Source: Bordetella genomosp. 1 (GTDB lineage: Bacteria; Pseudomonadota; Gammaproteobacteria; Burkholderiales; Burkholderiaceae_B). From it: DNA of 64,000 nt. Under the pieces are notes generated by a model. That model saw only the letters and a list, made by a program, of their open reading frames with translations, was not told the DNA's origin and made no database searches. This document shows positions 1,232 through 10,475 of the stretch, one piece after another. Position numbers and translations under genes: made by a program. The DNA lies in the NCBI RefSeq assembly GCF_002261335.1, contig NZ_NEVL01000003.1, positions 310,001 through 374,000 on the forward strand, given 5' to 3'. Numbering within the stretch: position 1 is the stretch's first letter; every line of letters starts with the position of its first letter.

Positions 1232-1819
1232 GTGAATACGAGCAGTGTGGAGGCGATTGGAAGACCACGGATCGACACCCTCCAGAATTTCTATCTGGAA
1301 GAGCGCGTGCGTGCGCAGATGCGCGCGGAACGTCGTGAGTACGCGCACGTCGCGGCACGCATGGGTGCGGAGGCCACAGAAGCTGCATGCGTGGCAATGC
1401 CGTTCACAGCACAATCGCAGGCGGGCGAGGGTGCAGGGCCTTCGGTGGACGCGCTGCGAAATGACTTTGCCGCGCACTGTCTGCAACGCGCCATACAGGC
1501 TTTCCATGAACAGCTGGCGCGTCTCGATGCGCGGGCGGCGGAAGTCGACCATGCGGCGCGAGACGAGCAGTCGCTGCTCCAGGCCCGCGCCGCTGCGGCC
1601 CAAGACCTCGGCACCATCGAAGGCCTGTCGCCACTCCAGCCTTACCGGTCCGCGGCAGTTTGGCCTATGCTTTCCACGCCGGCGCCGGAGGCCGTTTTCG
1701 GAAGCGGCGCGTTGCGGGTAACAGCGGTCGACGCCTCCGCCTCGCTGCGTGGAAGCACGGACCGCAGCCCGCGCCCCATGACGCCAGTCGTCGCTGAACA
1801 TCGCAAAAATGCAGTCTGA
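1232..1819 (+). CDS. Hypothetical protein whose C-terminus is encoded by a repeat
   Basis: A 195-residue frame beginning at GTG 1232, with GGAG about 7 bases upstream. Codon use is GC-rich at third positions, which favours a real gene. The first 50 residues are charged and helical; the middle (residues 65-125) is rich in Ala, Arg and Gln, as in a coiled coil. No known domain was recognised. The last codons (HRKNAV and the stop) come from a copy of the 21-bp dispersed repeat (1805-1827), so the original C-terminus may have been replaced by repeat insertion. An antisense frame overlaps but looks like a shadow. Confidence 0.5.
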   Translation: MNTSSVEAIGRPRIDTLQNFYLEERVRAQMRAERREYAHVAARMGAEATEAACVAMPFTAQSQAGEGAGPSVDALRNDFAAHCLQRAIQAFHEQLARLDARAAEVDHAARDEQSLLQARAAAAQDLGTIEGLSPLQPYRSAAVWPMLSTPAPEAVFGSGALRVTAVDASASLRGSTDRSPRPMTPVVAEHRKNAV

Positions 1820-1871
1820 CTCCTTTTCCGCGGCGGCGCGGCAGCCGATTTAAGGTGTCAGACTACAATTT
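1805..1871. repeat. Repeat group A: one inverted pair
   Basis: One copy lies in reverse orientation at 1805-1827 (core GCAGTCTGACTCC). A second lies in forward orientation at 1851-1871 (core GGTGTCAGACTACAATTT). They are separated by 23 GC-rich bases and form an inverted pair. This family recurs as groups B, C, D1 and D2. Confidence 0.85.
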
Positions 1872-2170
1872 CGGGTCGCGGCGAGGCGCGTGTGGCGCAT
1901 CGCGACGGCAGGCCAACTGCGGCGACGGCCTACGCCGCACTACGCCGCTGTACGCCGCAGTGCGCGGCAGCCCGGGACAATCCCATCATCGATGCCAGAG
2001 TGAGCCGCCCGCGTCTCGGCGGTGGGCTACAGTGCTTCTGGTTCTCGCGAGACGCCCGGGCCGAGCCGCAATGCCCGCGAGATTCGTTTCCCGCGTGCCG
2101 AGCGGATATCGACACGATCCGCCGCACGCCCGAGAGACGGCACGAATATGAAAGCAGGAGTAGTACAGCA

Positions 2171-2671
2171 GTGAACGATACCCACGATTTGGACCTGGAT
2201 GACCCGCAAGACAGCAAGGAGCAGAGCGCTCGGCTGTGGCAGGACGACGGCTGGACGGCCCGGGTCATCAAGAATGAAGACGACGACGGCTGGGCCGTCG
2301 AGATGACCAAGGACGGTCAGGCCGAGCCGGCCCTCGTCGGCCCCTGGACGATGGGCCGCGACAAAAAGAATCCCAAGCCGCTCGACTCGCCCGCGTTCAT
2401 CACGCTGGTAAAGACCGCCAACGAGGTGCTGCGTCGTCACGAACAGCAGCTGCACGCCACCTTGCACAAAAGCGTCAAGATCGACACTGCCGAAGGACGG
2501 CTGACGATCAAGCTAGACATCGTGCCAGACGATGACGAGCCCTATGCCATCTTGAGTGCCTACGACGAACTGGGCGAGGAACTGGCCAAGATCCAGGTCG
2601 CACCGAACTACAAGTTGAGCGTGCAACGCGCGTCGGACTGGGCGAGCGGCGGTTTCGGCCGACAAGGCTGA
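2171..2671 (+). CDS. Conserved hypothetical acidic protein
   Basis: A 166-residue soluble protein starting at GTG 2171, with GCAGGAG about 10 bases upstream. The frame stays open to 1892, but the upstream stretch is low-complexity Arg/Ala and overlaps repeat group A. The N-terminus is very acidic (DLDLDDPQDSKEQS). It is followed by a compact domain with Trp-rich motifs (WQDDGWTARV, DDGWAVEMTKDGQ, PWTMGRDKKNPKPL) and a C-terminal beta-rich part. It looks like a conserved proteobacterial family of unknown function; no catalytic motif was seen. Repeat group B starts 80 bases downstream. Confidence 0.7.
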   Translation: MNDTHDLDLDDPQDSKEQSARLWQDDGWTARVIKNEDDDGWAVEMTKDGQAEPALVGPWTMGRDKKNPKPLDSPAFITLVKTANEVLRRHEQQLHATLHKSVKIDTAEGRLTIKLDIVPDDDEPYAILSAYDELGEELAKIQVAPNYKLSVQRASDWASGGFGRQG

Positions 2672-2751
2672 TTCGCTGACCGGCGCACGTGCGTGCGTCG
2701 GTTCTTGCCGGGCGTTCCTGGGCGTCCAACGCCAGACTCGCAGCGCACCGG

Positions 2752-2904
2752 AAAAATGCAGTCTGACACCTTTTCGCTGCGCAGGCGCGCTTCAGAAAAT
2801 GCAGTCTGACTCCTTTTCGGTGGCGCCCGGATTCCAAAAAAATGCAGTCTGACACCTTTTCGCGGCGTGGATGCGTCTCGTGAAAATGTAGTCTGACTCC
2901 TTTT
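2752..2904 (-). repeat. Repeat group B: four reverse copies at 43-44 bp period
   Basis: The four copies start at 2752, 2796, 2838 and 2883. Their GCAG (GTAG in the last) cores lie at 2758, 2801, 2844 and 2888, a period of 43, 43 and 44 bp. Spacers are 20-22 bp, GC-rich and all different. The copies alternate between ...TGACACC and ...TGACTCC. The group occupies most of the 438-bp gap before the TonB receptor. Between 2905 and 3110 I see no gene, only the leader of the receptor. Confidence 0.9.
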
Positions 2905-3110
2905 CTTGATGCCTTCTCGGCTCCTTCGCGTTTTTGTCCTCCTGGCGGGGGGAAACGGCTGGCGCGGCGGCGCGGCCAGCGGAGGTGCGAGCCTCGTGCG
3001 TGTCGATACATGTTGTTGCAAGTGATGGTGCGTCTACCTGATCCCTTTTTCTTTCTTAAGGGTCATGTCAGGTAAGCACACCTCTTACAACGACACAGGA
3101 ACCCTCGACC

Positions 3111-5312
3111 ATGCACGTTGCCGCGTCGCATCACTGCGCCAACACCCCTGCGTACCGCCGCACCCGCTTCGCGAGCGCGATGGGCGCCGCCTTCATGATG
3201 ATGGCCGCGTCGGCCGCCATGGCACAAGCCCAGTCTTCCGCCACGGCCGACGCCTCGACGCTGCCGGCGGTCACCGTGACGGCGCCCGCGCTGAACGAGT
3301 TGCCGGAAGCGTATGCCGGCGGCCAGGTCGCGCGCGGCGGCAGCCTGGGCATCCTGGGCTCGGGCGACGTGATGGACATTCCGTTCAGCACGACCAACTA
3401 CACCTCGCAGATGCTCGAGGACCAGCAGGCCCGCACGCTGGCCGACGTGGTCGTGAACGAATCGTCGGTGCGCGTGATGACCTCGACGGGCAGCTTCAGC
3501 GAAGACTTCCAGATCCGCGGCTTCAACGTGCCCAGCGGCGACATCGGCTTCAACGGCCTGTATGGCCTGACCTCGTCGAACCGCATGCCCGCCGCGCTGA
3601 TGGAGCGCGTGGAAGTGTTGAAGGGCCCCGGCACGCTGATGTATGGCATCAGCCCGACCGGCAGCGTGGGCGGCAACATCAACATCATCACCAAGCGTGC
3701 TGGCGACGAGCCGCTCACGCGCCTGACCACGACCTACGAAAGCAAGTCGATCCTCGGCACGCATCTCGACGTGGGACGCCGCTTCGGCGACGAGAACCAG
3801 TGGGGCATCCGCGTGAACGGCCAGTATCGCAACGGCCAGACCAGCCTCGACAACGGCCGCCAGGAATTCGGCCTGGGCGCGCTCGCGCTGGACTACCGCT
3901 CGCCCAAGCTGCGCTGGTCGCTGGATGCCTACTCGCAGCGTGAGAACGTCGACAACTTCCGCGCCCAGACGGGCTTCGCGCCGGGGATTCCGTACCTGCC
4001 GTCGGCCCCGTCGGGTCACCGCGCGATCTATGATGGCGCCGATCTGCTGGTGTTCGATTCGGTGGTGGCCTCGCGCCTGGAGTATGACCTGACCGACAAC
4101 CTGATGGTGTATGCCGCCGCCGGCTATCGCTATGGCGGCAGCGAGCAGGACTTTCCGTCTGCGCGCACCATCAACGGCCTGGATCAACACGGCAATTTCC
4201 GCGTGACCAACGCCTGGTACGACGCCTACTCGCGCAACAAGACCGGCGAGATCGGTGCGCGCGCCAAGTTCGATACCTTTGGCGTGAAGCACACGCTGTC
4301 GGTGTCGGGATCGCTGTTGAAGATGGAAGCCGGCAGCTTTTTCCTGTCGGCACCGGCCAGCTCCGCGCAGAACTCCAACATCTATGATCCGGTGCGGCTC
4401 ACGCCGATGACCGGCGATCGCAGCACGCCGACGAAGAACTCGGAAACCGAGCTGTCGAGCCTGGCGCTGACCGACACGCTGTCGTTCGCCAACGACCGCA
4501 TCCTGCTGACGGGCGGCCTGCGTCACCAGAACGTGAAGCTGGAGAACTTCAACGCGGCCGGCAGCGTGACCTCGAAGTATGACGAGAGCGCCGTGTCGCC
4601 GCTGGCCGGCATCGTGCTCAAGCCGTGGGAGAACGTGGCCCTGTACGGCAACTTCACCTCGGGCCTGAGCCGGGGCGGCACCGCGCCGGCCACGGCCGCC
4701 AACGCGGGCGAAGTCTTCGCGCCGTACAAGTCCAAGCAGTACGAAGCGGGGATCAAGGTCGATTGGGGCAAGGTGATGACGACGGTGTCCGTGTTCCAGG
4801 TGGACCGGCCCAATGCCATTACCGATCCGGTGTCGAACGTCTACAGCTTCGACGGCGAGCAGCGCAACCGCGGTCTGGAACTGGCCGCCGTCGGCGAGAT
4901 CACCCGCGGCCTGCGCGTGATGGCCAGCGCCACGTTCTACGACGCCAAGCTGAGCGAGACCGCCGGCGGCGTGAACCAGGGCAATCGCGCGCCGGGCGTG
5001 CCCAAGCGCACCTATAACCTGGGCGTGGACTGGGACATCCCGGGCGTGCAGGGCCTGAGCGTAAACGCGCGCGCGATCCACACCGCCTCGTCGCCCTATG
5101 ACGCCGAAAACACGCTGACGCTGCCGTCGTGGACCCGCTACGATCTGGGCGCGCGCTATCGCACCGAGATCATGGGCAAGCCGGTCACGTTCCGCGCCAA
5201 CGTCGAGAACCTGTTCAACAAGAACTACTGGCTCTCGAGCAGCACGCTGCTCACCGTCGCCACCGCGGCCGCACCGCGCACCTTCCTGCTGTCGGCACAG
5301 ATCGACTTCTGA
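3111..5312 (+). CDS. TonB-dependent siderophore receptor
   Basis: A 733-residue outer-membrane receptor. A signal peptide covers about residues 1-39 (hydrophobic core AMGAAFMMMAASAAMAQA). There is no STN signalling domain, so transcription through a FecIR-type relay is not expected. The plug domain (about 75-200) has the usual QIRGF and VEVLKGPGTLMYG motifs, followed by NINIITKRA. The rest is a 22-strand barrel ending in an aromatic residue (SAQIDF). ATG 3111 has CAGGAA upstream. The length suits a ferric-siderophore receptor of the CirA/FhuE/FpvA type, but the ligand cannot be read from sequence. No transport genes adjoin it. Repeat groups B and C flank it, and a strong terminator follows. 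Confidence 0.93.
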   Translation: MHVAASHHCANTPAYRRTRFASAMGAAFMMMAASAAMAQAQSSATADASTLPAVTVTAPALNELPEAYAGGQVARGGSLGILGSGDVMDIPFSTTNYTSQMLEDQQARTLADVVVNESSVRVMTSTGSFSEDFQIRGFNVPSGDIGFNGLYGLTSSNRMPAALMERVEVLKGPGTLMYGISPTGSVGGNINIITKRAGDEPLTRLTTTYESKSILGTHLDVGRRFGDENQWGIRVNGQYRNGQTSLDNGRQEFGLGALALDYRSPKLRWSLDAYSQRENVDNFRAQTGFAPGIPYLPSAPSGHRAIYDGADLLVFDSVVASRLEYDLTDNLMVYAAAGYRYGGSEQDFPSARTINGLDQHGNFRVTNAWYDAYSRNKTGEIGARAKFDTFGVKHTLSVSGSLLKMEAGSFFLSAPASSAQNSNIYDPVRLTPMTGDRSTPTKNSETELSSLALTDTLSFANDRILLTGGLRHQNVKLENFNAAGSVTSKYDESAVSPLAGIVLKPWENVALYGNFTSGLSRGGTAPATAANAGEVFAPYKSKQYEAGIKVDWGKVMTTVSVFQVDRPNAITDPVSNVYSFDGEQRNRGLELAAVGEITRGLRVMASATFYDAKLSETAGGVNQGNRAPGVPKRTYNLGVDWDIPGVQGLSVNARAIHTASSPYDAENTLTLPSWTRYDLGARYRTEIMGKPVTFRANVENLFNKNYWLSSSTLLTVATAAAPRTFLLSAQIDF

Positions 5313-5369
5313 CGGATGTGGACGTCGGCCCGGTGTCGCGCACGCCGGGCCGGTGAATGCCAGAAACGA

Positions 5370-5409
5370 AAGGCCGGAGATCGCTGGATCTCCGGCCTTC
5401 TTCTTTTTT
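5370..5409 (+). terminator. Strong intrinsic terminator after the TonB receptor
   Basis: A perfect 13-bp stem (AAGGCCGGAGATC at 5370-5382, its complement at 5387-5399) with a GCTG tetraloop is followed by CTTCTTTTTT. It lies 57 bases after the receptor stop codon. Confidence 0.93.
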
Positions 5410-5453
5410 GGGGCGACATCGGAATCATGCACCGGCACCGTCGCCGCCCAAAC

Positions 5454-5755
5454 AAAGGTGTCAGACTACATTTTTCCGTGTCCGACCAATCACAAGAAAG
5501 GTGTCAGACTGCATTTTCGCGAACCGCCGCTCCAAGAACAAAGGTGTCAGACCGCAATTCCTGTGGGCCGCGGCGCCGTGAAAAAGGAGTCAGACTGCAA
5601 TTATTTGGTGCTGAGCTGAAGGTGTTCGGAGCGTCTGTTTGCGGGCCCGTCGCGGTTCGATGCCTGGAAATTGCAGTCTGACACCTCTGATTGGTGCAAC
5701 GACGAAATTGCAGGCTGACACCTTTCTTTAAATTGCAGTCTGACACCTTTCTTTT
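5454..5755. repeat. Repeat group C: four forward copies facing three reverse copies
   Basis: The forward copies start at 5454, 5497, 5540 and 5583, an exact 43-bp period. The third and fourth are diverged (GACCGCAATT; AAAGGAGTCAGACTGCAATT). About 66 bases later come three reverse copies with cores at 5673, 5710 and 5735. Their spacing, 37 and 25 bp, breaks the 43-bp rule, and they carry GCAATTT instead of GCATTTT in the AT-rich half. The group fills the gap between the receptor terminator and the minus-strand gene at 5775; no gene is seen in it. Confidence 0.9.
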
Positions 5756-5774
5756 GGGCGAGGTCGGAGCGGGT

Positions 5775-6170
5775 CTAGTCGAACGACCACCACAGCTCAA
5801 GCAAAAAGTAGCGGTTGTCTGACAGCCGGGCCATGTGGAGGTCGGCATTCATGATGTGGCCGTCGTTCTGGTAGTACCAGAGGAATGCGTCGACGCCGAG
5901 ATCCGTGCGGAGTGCGTCGATCAAGGCGTGCGCCGCGCTCTGCGGGTCGGGCCGCAGCGTGCCGAACTCGCCCTCGGCCGCCTGCAGCCATATCGCAAGC
6001 TCGTCCATGTCCAGCGGGCCCGCCGTGGGCGTGCGACGGGGATCATTGAAGCGTGTGTGGGCCTGGTGCGCCGCCTCGGTGTAGGTCCACAGCGTGCCTC
6101 CTTCCGGAAACGCTGCGTGCGAGCGGGCACAGTGGCGGTCCAGGAGGTCGAGGGTGCGCGGTGACAGCAT
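5775..6170 (-). CDS. Hypothetical protein, 131 residues
   Basis: A soluble protein starting MLSPRTLDLLDRHCARSH and ending in the aromatic-rich LLELWWSFD. It has a mixed alpha/beta composition, several conserved-looking motifs (GTLWTYTEAAHQAHTRFNDP, FLWYYQNDGHIMNADLHMA), no signal peptide and no membrane span. The full length between start and stop reads as coding on the minus strand. The stop lies 20 bases from the last repeat of group C. I do not recognise the family. Confidence 0.6.
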   Translation of the reverse strand: MLSPRTLDLLDRHCARSHAAFPEGGTLWTYTEAAHQAHTRFNDPRRTPTAGPLDMDELAIWLQAAEGEFGTLRPDPQSAAHALIDALRTDLGVDAFLWYYQNDGHIMNADLHMARLSDNRYFLLELWWSFD

Positions 6171-6382
6171 CGTGGGGTGGGGCGAGAGGTAAGGGGCGCA
6201 ATGCTGGCCCGGGGGAGGAGAATCGTTGCGCGTAGCGATATGTGCGACCGTTCGACCTCAGCAGATCATCGCGCGCAGCACGTGAGACCTGCGTGATCGT
6301 TGCGGCAGCAACGAATGGTCGCGCAGACAATGACGGAAGGTGAGTCAACAACGTCCGCCGCGGCCATCATGGTCTTGGGGGC

Positions 6383-6919
6383 TCACGGGACGAGCGAGAA
6401 TATCGAGGCGGGCACGGCTTTTCCATGCAGCTGGATGCGATTTCGTGCAACGCCCTCGAACTCCGCGCCAGCCTTGCGCGCGACAGCCTCGCTCGGCGTA
6501 TTGCCCACCGCCACCACGATTTCCACGCGTTGCATGCCGAGCGTGTCGAACGCATACGGAACGAGCGCCTGCACCGTGCGCGAGGCAATGCCTTGGCGCT
6601 GTGCCGACTGCTTGACCCAATAGCCCAGGTTGCAGAGCAGGTTGTGGCGCTGGATCGCGTTTAGCCCCGCGCCGCCCAGCAGCTCGCCGGTCGAGGCGGA
6701 GAATATCCCCACCTCATAAGCGGTCTGGCGCCGCTTGCCCGAGCGACACTGGCTGAACCAGGCGAGCGCGTCGAGCTCCGAAAACGATGAATTGCACCAC
6801 GACATCCAGCGACCGACCGTATCGACGGACTCCCGTGCGGCGCGCGCGAAATTGGCAGCATCGGTGCTGCGAAAACTCCGGAAAACGAGCCCTGCGTGCG
6901 TGATCGGCTGCATCGCCAT
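6383..6919 (-). CDS. GNAT-family N-acetyltransferase, RimJ/RimL type
   Basis: A 178-residue acetyltransferase that would transfer an acetyl group from acetyl-CoA to an amine, as in RimJ/RimL-type protein or small-molecule acetylation. Typical features are the N-terminal LVFRSFRSTDA beta strand, the central GYWVKQSAQRQGIASRTVQALVPYAF segment (residues about 108-134) with the acetyl-CoA pyrophosphate-binding Q-x-x-G-I-A loop, and VEIVVAVGNTPSEAVARKAGAEFEG near the C-terminus. Length is normal for the family. It stands alone on the minus strand; the substrate is unknown. Confidence 0.88.
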   Translation of the reverse strand: MAMQPITHAGLVFRSFRSTDAANFARAARESVDTVGRWMSWCNSSFSELDALAWFSQCRSGKRRQTAYEVGIFSASTGELLGGAGLNAIQRHNLLCNLGYWVKQSAQRQGIASRTVQALVPYAFDTLGMQRVEIVVAVGNTPSEAVARKAGAEFEGVARNRIQLHGKAVPASIFSLVP

Positions 6920-7300
6920 CTCTCAAAATCGGTTTCTCCTGCATCATACCTAAGGCGCGTTCGCCCAGCGCCGGCGGTCAGGATCCGGGACGCATCAATG
7001 CAGTGCGAGTCCATTGCGATGGTCTGACCGCATTCTTGCGGCGGCGTGTCGTCGGTGCGGGAATCGAACACTCATGCGTGGCTACGGCGTCGGCGCGAGC
7101 CCGTGCCCCAAGCCTGGTCCGCGCTCGCGCCCGCGCCTGACTCCGCCCTTACACGGACGCCATGATGTTGGAACGTCCTGTCACAGGAGGCCGGCATCGG
7201 GTCGGGTAAGCTTGCGGCGATTTTGATCGGGTGTGCGCGCAACGAATTGCATGCGCAAGCAACCCCTTCGCTTTCCCGGCAACTCTTGGATCGACTCCCT
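6920..7300. other. Gene-poor interval
   Basis: The 381 bases between the acetyltransferase start and the SMI1/KNR4 start carry no frame with convincing codon use, no tRNA fold and no terminator. GGTCTGACCGCATTCTT at about 7020 faintly resembles a decayed copy of the dispersed repeat, but it differs at too many positions to call. Confidence 0.4.
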
Positions 7301-7852
7301 ATGGCAAATCCCCCCATCCTGGACGAAATGTGGGCCATCCTCGGCCCGGTCGACATCAAGGACTTCGAGGTCGTGGCGGGCGCGGCCGAGGCGGAACGCT
7401 TCGACGCGTATGAGGCCAGACTGGGCTTCAAGCTGCCCGACGCGTTCCGCGATCTGAGCCTGTCCAAGCTGGGTGGTGTGTACGTGACGGCGCGCGAGGA
7501 GCATTGGCCGGAGGCCAAGCTCTATGACGTCGGTCCGGCCTGGACCTTCTGGCGGGGCGTGATGGTGTTCGGGCTGGCCCCCGACGTGCCCGACAGGCTC
7601 AACCTCGAAGTGATGCTGGATCGCGTTCGCGAGCAGGAGATCAGCGACTTTGCGCCGGTGCTGAAGGTGGAAGGAGATTCGCGGCTGTATGGCTTCCGGC
7701 CTGACCAGACCGTGGCCGTGTTCGACGGCTACGAGCTGGAGGATGAATCGGCCGAGTCCTTTGCCGCGCTGTACCGACGCGAGATCGGCGATCTGCTTGA
7801 GCGATTCGCCGACATGAAGGCATTGCAGGCCAAGCGTGCGCGCAAGGGCTGA
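7301..7852 (+). CDS. SMI1/KNR4 (SUKH) family protein
   Basis: A 183-residue protein of the SUKH superfamily, whose bacterial members often act as immunity proteins against contact-dependent or polymorphic toxins. The signature is FDAYEARLGFKLPDAFRDLSLSKLGGVYV (the E-x-x-L-G-x-x-L-P-x-x-[FY] motif) near residues 36-66, then a beta-rich middle and a charged C-terminus. ATG 7301 (MANPPILDE) is preferred over the upstream GTG-type starts because the upstream residues do not fit the family. No toxin gene adjoins it, so it may be an orphan immunity gene. A second SUKH protein lies at 11823. Confidence 0.8.
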   Translation: MANPPILDEMWAILGPVDIKDFEVVAGAAEAERFDAYEARLGFKLPDAFRDLSLSKLGGVYVTAREEHWPEAKLYDVGPAWTFWRGVMVFGLAPDVPDRLNLEVMLDRVREQEISDFAPVLKVEGDSRLYGFRPDQTVAVFDGYELEDESAESFAALYRREIGDLLERFADMKALQAKRARKG

Positions 7853-7953
7853 GCAGGCAGGCGCGGGTTCACCGGGCGTCGTCGGCGCCGGGGAGCCCCA
7901 GCAGGCTGGTCTGGCTTACAAGGAAACCAGCGTTGAACGATCGAGGAACGTCG

Positions 7954-8337
7954 ATGATCCGAGTCTTGAGCGGTTTTGCCTTTTTTGCCGTTGCCGCCGT
8001 GGCGAGCGCCGCGTCTTCGGTGGATTATGACGCCCGTTACGACCTTTGCCTGACCGAGGCTGGAGGGGCGAACAATACTTCGGTGCTGAATTGCTCGGGG
8101 TCGGTGAATGCCGACGTCAAGGCCGAGATGAATACGCTCTACGACAAGCTGCACACGCGCCTCGTGGGCGAATCGGTTGCGGACGCAGACAAGCTGGAGG
8201 CGACCCAGAAAGCCGTGTATCGCAACGGTCAGTGCGACCTCGCCCCGTCGTACGTGGGATCGCCCATGTACGGCTATTGTCCGCTGATGCTGAACATTCA
8301 GCGCGTGAAGGAGTTGCGCGAGCTGTTGGGCGAGTGA
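7954..8337 (+). CDS. Secreted lysozyme-inhibitor LprI-like protein
   Basis: A 127-residue protein with a signal peptide of about 20 residues (MIRVLSGFAFFAVAAVASA, cleavage before ASSVDYD). The mature part has paired cysteines in the DLCLTEAGG, LNCSGS, GQCDLAP and GYCPLM segments. This pattern matches the LprI N-terminal (DUF1311) fold, a small disulfide-bonded periplasmic domain found in lysozyme inhibitors. ATG 7954 is chosen because GAGGA lies 8 bases upstream; the earlier TTG (7933) would put a charged extension before the signal peptide. It lies next to the SUKH and FRG genes, in an accessory stretch. Its actual target is not shown by the sequence. Confidence 0.72.
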   Translation: MIRVLSGFAFFAVAAVASAASSVDYDARYDLCLTEAGGANNTSVLNCSGSVNADVKAEMNTLYDKLHTRLVGESVADADKLEATQKAVYRNGQCDLAPSYVGSPMYGYCPLMLNIQRVKELRELLGE

Positions 8338-8368
8338 GCCTCGGGCGCTCCGAGCGCGCGCCGGAAGG

Positions 8369-9241
8369 TCAGCCGGGCGCCGGGGTGGCGATCCGGGCTT
8401 TCACCGCGTTCGCCAGTTCGCACATGGGATCCTGGGCGGCAAGCGGATAGAGCGCCTCGCCGTCCACGCGCGGGAAAGCCGCGCTGCCTCGCCAGAACTC
8501 GGCCGGGTTGAAGCGGAATTTGGCGATCAGCTTGCGGCCGAAGTCCATTTCCGCGTGCTCGTAATGCAGGCCCTGGTCGGCGCTGGCGAACTCCGGGTAC
8601 TCACCGAGAAGATAGCCTTCCTGGATGTGCGGGCGCACGGCGTCGGGCGGGCATACGCTGGCGAGACGCACGATCTGGATGCCGGCCTCGGCGCTTGCGG
8701 TGATGGCGCCGCTGATCTGCGGTATGCCCAGCACGAACACGTAGGCGTCCGACCCGTCATGCTGGCTGGCGAAAGACGCGGCGATACGCAGCGATTGCGT
8801 CACGTCGAGCAGCGGCGTTTCGCAGATTTCGTAGTGTTGAAGTATCGCCCAGCGCAGGATGCGCTGACGCTTGACGCGATCGCGCCCGAGAATCTGGCGC
8901 GCGGTGTACTCGGCAACCAACGCCTGTTCGGCGGCGATCAGGCGTTCGAAGCGCAGGCCGATCTCGCGCTCGGTGGGCAGCTTGTTGGGCACGCGCGAAC
9001 GCAGCAGCGACGGCTTGAGCGACGTGGCGCCTGCGCGATTGGCGTGGTCGCGGGCCTGGCCGCGGTACATCATCACGAAGTCGCGATTGCGGAACTGCAG
9101 CTCGGCCACCTTGTTGGCGAGCTCCATGTACGACGCGACGAAGCAGGGCGGCTCCTTCCGGATCGTGCCGCAGCTCGAGGCCTTGATGCCGTCGGCCGAA
9201 CCGGAGAAGGTCCAGATCTTCTGGCTGCCGATGATGTCCAC
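8369..9241 (-). CDS. FRG-domain protein
   Basis: A 290-residue protein with an FRG domain. The YRGQARDHANRAGATSLKPSLLR segment (residues about 55-78) is the hallmark, and the HYEICETPLLDVTQSLRIAASFA segment is the conserved second half. FRG domains are found in proteins of uncertain biochemical role, several in phage-defence or toxin-like loci. GTG 9241 is chosen because AGGAGA lies 8 bases upstream. The longer frame up to 9394 reads through repeat group D1 (HRKMQSDTF is repeat sequence) and is not genuine. It is transcribed away from the repeat array and the RAYT gene. Confidence 0.8.
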   Translation of the reverse strand: MDIIGSQKIWTFSGSADGIKASSCGTIRKEPPCFVASYMELANKVAELQFRNRDFVMMYRGQARDHANRAGATSLKPSLLRSRVPNKLPTEREIGLRFERLIAAEQALVAEYTARQILGRDRVKRQRILRWAILQHYEICETPLLDVTQSLRIAASFASQHDGSDAYVFVLGIPQISGAITASAEAGIQIVRLASVCPPDAVRPHIQEGYLLGEYPEFASADQGLHYEHAEMDFGRKLIAKFRFNPAEFWRGSAAFPRVDGEALYPLAAQDPMCELANAVKARIATPAPG

Positions 9242-9349
9242 TGTCGCGTGTCTCCTGCCTCGCCCGACGATGCGCGCGCCGGACGGGTGGCTGTAAAGGG
9301 CTAAGCATACTAGGACAGGCCCCCGCCGGCCGCGGTAAAGGTATCCAGT

Positions 9350-9456
9350 AAAGGTGTCAGACTGCATTTTTCTGTGCAGCCCGATTCCCAACAAAGGTGT
9401 CAGACTGCATTTTCTTTGCCGCCTCCGCGCACAACAAAGGTGTCAGACTGCATTTT
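9350..9456 (+). repeat. Repeat group D1: three forward copies, exact 43-bp period
   Basis: Forward copies with core GGTGTCAGACTGCATTTT start at 9350, 9393 and 9436, exactly 43 bp apart. Spacers are 21 and 22 bp, unique and GC-rich, and end in ...AAC before each copy. The group sits upstream of the RAYT gene, which reads toward the inverted group D2. The 398-bp gap between 9242 and 9639 contains no other feature I can support. Confidence 0.92.
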
Positions 9457-9639
9457 CCGGGGCGGGGAGCAATGCGGGGGAAGGCAGGTCGCAGCGAAGC
9501 GGGCTGTGGCGGCAGGAGAACCATCGCAGCCAGCTCGCACGCTGTGCAATGAACCGGTGTGATGAACGCATCCCGCAGTCGCGCCGATCTCTGCATGAAG
9601 TGCTAGCGTTGCACGCTCCCCTCTTTGCCGGAGCCGCTC

Positions 9640-10338
9640 ATGTCTCCTCGTCTCGCACGGGTCGTGGTTGCCCATCTTCCGCATCATGTCGTCCAGCGTG
9701 GACACAGCCGTCAGACCGTGTTCGCGGGAGACGATCACTATCTTGCCTACCTCTCCGATATCGAACAGAAGTCCCGCGAGTTGGACGTCGCGGTTCACGC
9801 CTATTGTCTGATGCCGAACCACGTGCATCTGCTCCTCACGCCAACCGAGCCACCCTCGGTCGGGCGCTTGATGAAGGAGGTGGCGCGACGCGCGACGGTG
9901 CGATGGAATCGCCGGTTCGGGCGTTCGGGCACGCTCTGGGAGAGTCGGTACCGCTCGAGCGTGGTGCAGACCGAGCGCTATTTCCTGGCCTGCTGCCGGT
10001 ATATCGAGTTGAACCCGGTGCGTGCCGGGTTGGTGGCACGGCCGGAGGAATATCCGTGGTCGAGCTACTGCGCGCGGTTGAGGGAAGCGGAGGGCGGCGT
10101 GCTGGCGCTGCACCCGGCCTATCTCGCGCTCGGCGCCACCTTGGAAGCGAGGCAGCGCGTCTATCGGGCACTTGCGGCCCAGGCGCTGCATGAGGACGAA
10201 CTCATGCAGATCCGGGGCGCGACGCAGACCGGCAACCCGTTGGCGACGTCAGCCTATTGCCGCGCGTTGCAGACGGCGCTGGCGCGCCCGGTGGTGACGG
10301 CACGGCGCGGTCGGCCGAGGAAAGAAAATGCAGTCTGA
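9640..10338 (+). CDS. REP-associated tyrosine transposase (RAYT, IS200-like HUH protein)
   Basis: A 232-residue single-domain Y1 HUH endonuclease of the RAYT (TnpA-REP) family, which cleaves and rejoins single-stranded DNA at REP-type sequences. The HUH motif is MPNHVHLLL, with histidines at residues 61 and 63. Tyr121 in CRYIELNPVRAGLV is the likely catalytic tyrosine, since its spacing from the HUH motif is close to that of the E. coli protein. Other family motifs are HHVVQRGHSRQTVF, GTLWESRYRSS and YPWSSY. ATG 9640 has GCCGGAG upstream. The stop codon lies inside the first repeat of group D2 (protein ends RPRKENAV). Inverted repeat arrays flank the gene, so the repeats are very likely its DNA substrate. 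It appears intact. Confidence 0.93.
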   Translation: MSPRLARVVVAHLPHHVVQRGHSRQTVFAGDDHYLAYLSDIEQKSRELDVAVHAYCLMPNHVHLLLTPTEPPSVGRLMKEVARRATVRWNRRFGRSGTLWESRYRSSVVQTERYFLACCRYIELNPVRAGLVARPEEYPWSSYCARLREAEGGVLALHPAYLALGATLEARQRVYRALAAQALHEDELMQIRGATQTGNPLATSAYCRALQTALARPVVTARRGRPRKENAV

Positions 10339-10475
10339 CACCTTTGTTTGGCGCACGGCGGCGCAGAAAAAATGCAGTCTGACACCTTTGTTTGGATCGG
10401 CGGCGCCGCGGAAATTGCAGTCTGACACCTTTGTTCGAGGGTGGGGTGGCGGGATAAATGCAGTCTGACACCTTT
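10325..10475 (-). repeat. Repeat group D2: four reverse copies, 43-44 bp period
   Basis: Reverse copies have GCAG cores at 10330, 10374, 10417 and 10460 (period 44, 43, 43). The first overlaps the RAYT stop codon. The third has AAATTGCAG instead of AAAATGCAG. Spacers of about 22 bp start with GTTTG or GTTCG and are GC-rich. Together with D1 they form an inverted bracket round the RAYT gene. Confidence 0.92.

Follow-up and report, generated by a model that had tools for sequence, protein, structure and literature searches.

A family of short repeats in Bordetella genomosp. 1 probably consists of the cognate sites of a REP-associated tyrosine transposase (RAYT; REP, repetitive extragenic palindrome), a small 'domesticated' transposase encoded among them at positions 9640-10338. 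The repeats would have spread as non-autonomous elements, and their arrays would have grown by duplication of a 43/44-bp unit with the distance fixed by a protein assembly. The window analyzed here is a 64-kb stretch of contig NZ_NEVL01000003.1 (C4:310001-374000 of a 5.6-Mb genome). A scan of the whole window with ≤3 mismatches found 20 repeat copies in five groups, all at the positions given in the original prediction, an earlier reading of the window from its sequence. A reversed-motif control gave 0 matches across the window with ≤4 mismatches allowed. The 'strict' 43-44-bp period of the original prediction holds for arrays B and D1, array D2 and the first half of array C, and it breaks down in the second half of C, where the steps are 37 and 25 bp. 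Group A is a divergent pair with 47 bp between copies, and a convergent step of 83 bp joins the first arm of array C to the second. The features are listed below.

1807-1823, minus strand: repeat, group A copy 1 (17-bp core), which provides the stop codon of the open reading frame (ORF) at 1232-1819
1854-1870, plus strand: repeat, group A copy 2
2754-2900, minus strand: array B, four direct repeats with steps of 43, 43 and 44 bp
5457-5602, plus strand: array C first arm, four direct repeats with all steps exactly 43 bp
5669-5747, minus strand: array C second arm, three repeats with steps of 37 and 25 bp, inverted relative to the first arm
9353-9455, plus strand: array D1, three direct repeats with steps of exactly 43 bp, upstream of the RAYT gene
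9640-10338, plus strand: RAYT/TnpA-REP-like HUH tyrosine transposase, 232 amino acids, with HVH and YIELNP motifs
10326-10472, minus strand: array D2, four direct repeats with steps of 44, 43 and 43 bp, downstream of and overlapping the RAYT gene

A RAYT gene lies between two inverted arrays

The gene that identifies the system was overlooked in the original prediction. It is flanked by inverted repeats, with D1 forward and D2 reverse. The start is the ATG at 9640, with a TTG at 9625 also possible, and the TGA stop falls within the first D2 repeat. The protein matches Pfam Y1_Tnp (3.8e-13) and NCBIfam REP_Tyr_transpos (82.8 bits, just over the cut-off of 80), and there is a weak match by sequence to the solved TnpA-REP structure 4er8 (7e-4). 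Residues H61, H63, Y121, N125 and P126, which make up the HxH motif and the Y---NP class 2 signature, do not vary in either of two alignments (12 and 30 sequences). The C terminus carries a conserved GRP tail (alignment A1), and no helix-turn-helix family was reached in the Pfam scan.

RAYT group 1 is equated with TnpAY1 subclass 2.1 in a passage of PMC6006769. The relatives, length and flanks of the window protein suggest a group-1/subclass-2.1-like (TIRYT-type) enzyme. The TIRtrons and their TIRYT transposases (Di Nocera 2013, PMC3733652) are among the closest known systems. Passages of that paper describe inverted repeats, other than GTAG REPs, on both sides of a RAYT-like HUH tyrosine transposase, and repeat families that are single, dimeric or grouped, as here. 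The flanking motif GGTGTCAG is close to the GGGGWSAS found in passages on TIRtrons and subclass 2.1 (PMC3733652, PMC6006769), from which it differs at 1 of 8 positions; relatives such as loci L129, L142 and L158 carry GGGGTCAG. Two features set the present family apart. It has 374 copies in 69 clusters, whereas a passage of PMC3733652 calls TIRtron families 'moderately abundant', and its direct repeats at a regular 43/44-bp step, separated by diverged spacers, have no counterpart in the passages on TIRtrons in PMC3733652 and PMC6006769. The RAYT gene that D1 and D2 enclose, together with the genome-wide spread described below, points to a RAYT/TIRtron-type repeat family and not to clustered regularly interspaced short palindromic repeats (CRISPR).

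The repeat is spread through the genome

The original prediction confined the repeats to the first 10.5 kb. This is true of the window, which has 0 copies (≤3 mismatches) between 12 and 64 kb, and not of the genome, where the exact pattern GGTGTCAGACTNCAWTT occurs 291 times (155 forward and 136 reverse; reversed control, 0). Copies were located by five pattern searches, and the 37 stretches around them hold all 291 exact copies. These stretches contain 374 copies with ≤3 mismatches in 69 clusters, a count that mismatched copies outside the 37 stretches would escape. Many clusters have the form >>>><<<<, with the ATTT ends toward the center.

Each site has a conserved GGTGTCAGACTGC core flanked by AT-rich, partly complementary arms. 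The arms were analyzed in 202 distinct sites from 59 loci that had been pre-filtered for AT-rich arms. Bases at -7 to -4 form pairs with those at +14 to +11 in 60-80% of these sites. The likely form of the site is a weak AT-rich palindrome with a conserved core at its center, unlike GTAG REPs: the GT[AG]G foot of a classical REP is absent at the repeat, and the arms are AT-rich. No description of the repeat GTCAGACT was found in the TIRYT/RAYT literature in a search that was made without two likely sources, PMC5581495 and PMC3333891.

The exact pattern GGTGTCAGACTNCAWTT was present in 2 of 31 genomes searched (this genome and 30 relatives), with 291 copies here and 10 in the sister genome G009. 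Across 15 genomes of the genus, a full-length RAYT of this kind is found in this genome only and the other 13 genomes have 0 exact repeats, a pattern that favors a link between the repeats and the RAYT. RAYT matches elsewhere in the genus are one of 51% identity at a contig end (G001) and others of about 28-33%. With a slightly altered pattern, matches were found in 27 of 268 genomes of the family, with 290 copies here, 11 in G009 and ≤32 in each of 25 genomes of genus g4, presumably Achromobacter; the highest exact copy number elsewhere in the family is 32. Copy number and the 43/44-bp rhythm are unusual features of this RAYT repeat family. Degenerate and variant forms also occur in the sister genome: 1.65 Mb of it hold 33 copies at ≤3 mismatches, of which a few are matches by chance. 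A variant repeat of its own, with a GCCTTTTCG end, forms a mostly alternating array at L102 (G009 C13:156695-157117), where the steps range from 46 to 55 bp, and no close RAYT was found in the G009 genome.

Neighboring sites favor a 43/44-bp step, and other distances are helically phased

Of the 215 direct neighbors ≤110 bp apart, 77 have a step of 43 bp and 39 a step of 44 bp, with minor groups at 24-26, 33-37 and 52-57 bp. Removal of near-duplicate spacers left 169 direct distances between 20 and 100 bp, 97 of which are 43 or 44. Convergent neighbors ≤110 bp apart (n = 66) peak at 39-40 and 29-31 bp, with smaller groups near 22, 59-60 and 73. Periodicity was evaluated by Monte Carlo with distances jittered by 5.5 bp and periods of 8-13 scanned. 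The 59 convergent distances gave a period of 10.8 bp (p = 5e-5, the lowest value that the test can give), and 10.6 bp was obtained both for the 36 convergent distances outside the 38-41 peak (p = 5.5e-4) and for the 56 direct distances outside 42-45 (p = 0.006). Periods of ~10.7 bp are close to the helical repeat of B-DNA. The original prediction had raised the idea of a protein array that sets the period. It is probably correct, given the genome-wide 43/44 peak, the helical phasing of the other distances and the exact 43-bp step at RAYT loci of another family (see below).

The spacers vary in sequence. Their variable core of ~16 nt is about 73% G+C (123 spacers), so the GC-rich spacers noted in the window extend to the genome as a whole. 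Core identity between arrays is 0.41 compared with 0.38 for shuffled sequences, the 123 spacers fall into 91 families, and base usage is biased by position. Within arrays, identity is 0.455 versus 0.412 with permuted labels (0/1000), a value obtained with two arrays of near-identical spacers (C1:90253 and C4:456494) left out. The within-array likeness fits duplication of a unit followed by drift. Spacing by descent alone would take this further: a 43/44-bp unit is duplicated in tandem, indels are rare and no protein reads the distance. The near-identical spacers of two arrays and the excess likeness within arrays are what it has in its favor. It is an unlikely account, since spacer core identity is near background while 97/169 distances remain 43 or 44 and since the distances beyond the main peak are helically phased.

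The spacers were also considered as hairpins, and this was rejected because, on average, the spacer core folds as DNA with the same energy as shuffles (z = 0.1). Older intergenic DNA split by repeats was rejected as their source as well; the colinear gap C4:308010-308655 has no G009 match longer than 12 bp. At C3:455400-455934, ~535 bp with nine repeats stand here between two conserved genes that in G009 are separated by only ~six bases (by eye). The repeats, and the spacers with them, are thus either additional DNA in this genome or have been lost from G009. A nearly invariant, ~45-bp palindromic stretch common to this genome and G009 adjoins an array in an otherwise diverged intergenic region (L041, about C4:170210-170265).

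The repeat-spacer rhythm and the mostly unique spacers are shared with CRISPR arrays and would suit a CRISPR-like adaptive immunity with an unusual effector. Such a system is extremely improbable here. The copies occur in both orientations at 69 places, arms are inverted inside clusters, the spacers have a position-dependent base bias, and the associated gene is a RAYT instead. The original prediction regarded the layout as CRISPR-like in rhythm only, which holds, and proposed a comparison of the spacers with phages and plasmids. A PADLOC scan of 10 proteins in the first 10.5 kb (not every ORF, and with the rest of the genome unsearched) found no cas genes, and array C, the only array searched, gave no phage match better than E = 1 and no plasmid match at E ≤ 1. 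Regular repeat-spacer arrays need not be CRISPRs.

REP doublet forming hairpins (REPINs) and bacterial interspersed mosaic elements (BIMEs) are alike in that passages of PMC3116915 and PMC2817692 describe repeats tied to a RAYT and inverted doublets. Inverted doublets occur here too, with 66 convergent and 215 direct neighbors ≤110 bp apart. Evenly spaced tandem arrays in P. fluorescens SBW25 are reported in a passage of PMC3116915. The ordered clusters in passages of these two papers are near-identical units including their flanks, whereas the spacers here are mostly unrelated. The arms here, unlike those in the same passages, are runs of direct copies without a GTAG foot and without a GC-rich hairpin.

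An exact 43-bp step recurs at RAYT loci of another family

At least 80 named RAYT loci, among the matches listed, were compared. The closest of these 80 is the Achromobacter deleyi RAYT (58% identity), which is present in two copies, each flanked on both sides by the same core in opposite orientations. At least one copy of GG.GTCAGA or GGGTCAGA lies ≤1.5 kb from the RAYT gene at 38 of the 80 listed loci, and by this motif none was seen at the other 42 (by eye). At loci L304, L305 and L306 (genomes G344, G346 and G322), RAYT units of ~819-826 bp lie between inverted repeats. Two units stand side by side at L306, which is probably A. deleyi, and L304 has a second, broken unit, as if the unit had moved or been duplicated.

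A distance of 43 bp was found in 5 of 17 direct pairs <200 bp apart at the 80 listed loci, and all five loci are Oxalobacteraceae-type (L130, L141, L156, L166 and L171). We take Massilia and Telluria to be Oxalobacteraceae. A group-1-like RAYT is present in 372 of 392 genomes of the Oxalobacteraceae-type family f7 (E ≤ 1e-60), nearly all with one match. Direct distances <150 bp at 30 RAYT loci of this family are 43 bp 35 times (23 loci, with none at the other 7) and never 42 or 44. The further distances are 48 bp 25 times, 53 bp five times and 19 bp once, and the remaining distance between pairs varies from 68 to 120 bp. In pairs picked at 43 bp, identity over an 18-nt spacer core is 48% for 25 GGGACAGAG pairs (23 loci) and 78% for 10 GGGTCAGAG pairs (10 loci). 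The f7 loci would thus argue for a length held constant despite sequence divergence. They also count against spacing by descent alone, because exactly 43 bp is kept while adjoining intervals vary and the spacers of the GGGACAGAG pairs are only 48% alike. These 30 loci (L271-L300) have two repeat types, GGGTCAGAGT and GGGACAGAGT, both paired at 43 bp, and their 48-bp pairs mostly join one exact core and one core with one mismatch.

A model for the arrays and its weak points

In the proposed mechanism, the repeats would be sites of the RAYT at 9640-10338 and, judged by the family to which they belong, would have spread through the genome as non-autonomous elements. Arrays would settle between genes, often just beyond a 3' end, and grow through duplication of the 43/44-bp unit. 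Spacers would drift afterwards while the site and the distance are retained. A protein assembly, made up of the RAYT or of a DNA-binding partner from the host, may fill neighboring sites in a fixed helical register about four turns apart, and the distance would be kept because this assembly holds neighboring sites in register. The sites are clear, they number in the hundreds and their length rule recurs in another family, so binding, cutting and array growth are directly testable.

Several observations weigh against this model. Binding and cleavage by the RAYT and mobility of the repeats are predictions from sequence. The sharp 43-bp peak that the original prediction looked for in other genomes appeared at 23 of 30 Oxalobacteraceae-type loci and failed to appear elsewhere: six Achromobacter direct pairs measure 31, 35, 44, 58, 73 and 79 bp, and the direct 43-bp step is absent outside the Oxalobacteraceae-type loci among the 80 listed. 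Because the f7 loci share ancestry, their 35 pairs do not represent 35 independent events. In the same loci the 48-bp distance, half a turn off, is equally constant, and f7 genomes G315 and G286 alternate steps of about 44-45 and 51-52 bp elsewhere in the genome. Achromobacter convergent distances (32 after removal of near-duplicates) are grouped too, but the period that fits them best is 11.5 (p = 0.003), not 10.6. RAYT presence does not predict copy number, as Achromobacter-type genomes with the same core have ≤32 exact copies. The repeat core is ≥98% conserved at 14 of 17 positions, a near-invariance that arises partly by construction because copies were chosen with ≤3 mismatches. Covariation of the arms (z = 6.4 for -4/+11, 5.8 for -5/+12, 1.4 for -6/+13 and 3.5 for -7/+14) is inflated by relatedness and weak at -6/+13, and similar values in off-register cells (for example, 5.4 and 5.6) mean that no exact hairpin register is claimed.

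Arrays, gene ends and gene order

Genes were called by a rule based on G+C content by codon position, with no gene finder. By these calls, 57 of 73 gene 3' ends that face an array lie ≤150 bp from it, and one of these 57 overlaps it by 13 bp (by eye). The gaps that hold clusters are 39 tandem, 17 convergent, 9 divergent and 4 undetermined, and array-free gaps of the window number 16, 9 and 8, respectively. Convergent gaps are therefore not preferred (17/65 clusters versus 9/33 array-free). The proximity to 3' ends, the RNA folding of array C (z = -9.3, far better than shuffles) and a passage of PMC2817692 in which BIMEs bind host proteins would be consistent with a host function. In that case the arrays would persist because they serve as bidirectional structures at 3' ends or as nucleoprotein sites (terminators, mRNA stabilizers, or sites of the gyrase/IHF type), with the RAYT only their origin. 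This alternative is possible but doubtful: convergent gaps are not enriched, the folding score arises from the inverted repeats alone, and the exact repeat is absent from 13 of 14 congeners.

Gene order was compared with 1.65 Mb of G009 (32%), some of which had been picked for matching the first two loci. Of the testable junctions, 10 of the 15 that hold an array show a break in order, compared with 4 of the 32 array-free ones (Fisher, 3e-4). The contrast is 10/15 versus 3/20 at gaps ≥150 bp (p = 0.004), and 7/12 versus 4/32 when the small G009 stretches picked for the first two loci are left out (p = 0.004). The segment C4:309593-320484 is missing at the corresponding G009 site, where its flanks are ~550 bp apart, and its matching genes are scattered in G009. 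Three matched parts (2.3 kb total) of a 12-kb G009 segment sit in three array-bounded blocks here. These data raise the possibility that genes enclosed by arrays are relocated, either by the RAYT or through recombination from array to array, which we regard as rather improbable. Arrays might cause the breaks, or mark places that tolerate them, or do both. Five arrays sit in unbroken gene order, among them the one with nine repeats at C3:455400-455934, and the contrast shrinks to 10/15 versus 1/8 (p = 0.03) at gaps ≥300 bp with strong matches. The 4 array-free breaks include short matches, the controls come mostly from one 50-kb region, and the comparison with G009 is unpolarized. The tested genes do not share their neighbors in other congeners either, and duplicated segments in an Achromobacter array mostly end elsewhere than at repeats. 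An extension of the RAYT-site model, in which group-1 RAYT sites would form a helically phased nucleoprotein array of four turns per step in which selection acts on the length rule and not on the spacer sequence, and arrays would serve as joints for exchanging or relocating single genes and small blocks, is speculative and similarly improbable.

Array-bounded blocks as carriers of special cargo were considered and rejected: 20 of 73 block ORFs were scanned in Pfam, and 14 match ordinary regulators, transporters and enzymes. Integron-like cassettes in Achromobacter were rejected also, for although repeat pairs separate immunity genes, the duplicated segments mostly end away from repeats. At L301 and L302 (G317 C4:595000-620000, Achromobacter-type), compact inverted repeat pairs 28 bp apart lie between successive small genes. 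The locus looks polymorphic-toxin-like, and its genes include Imm2, colicin-immunity and SUKH-type immunity proteins. In the window, positions 8372-9241 (minus strand) encode an FRG-domain protein (Pfam FRG, 1.6e-9) that weakly matches seven PADLOC PDC-S15 candidate defense models (best, 6.2e-8).

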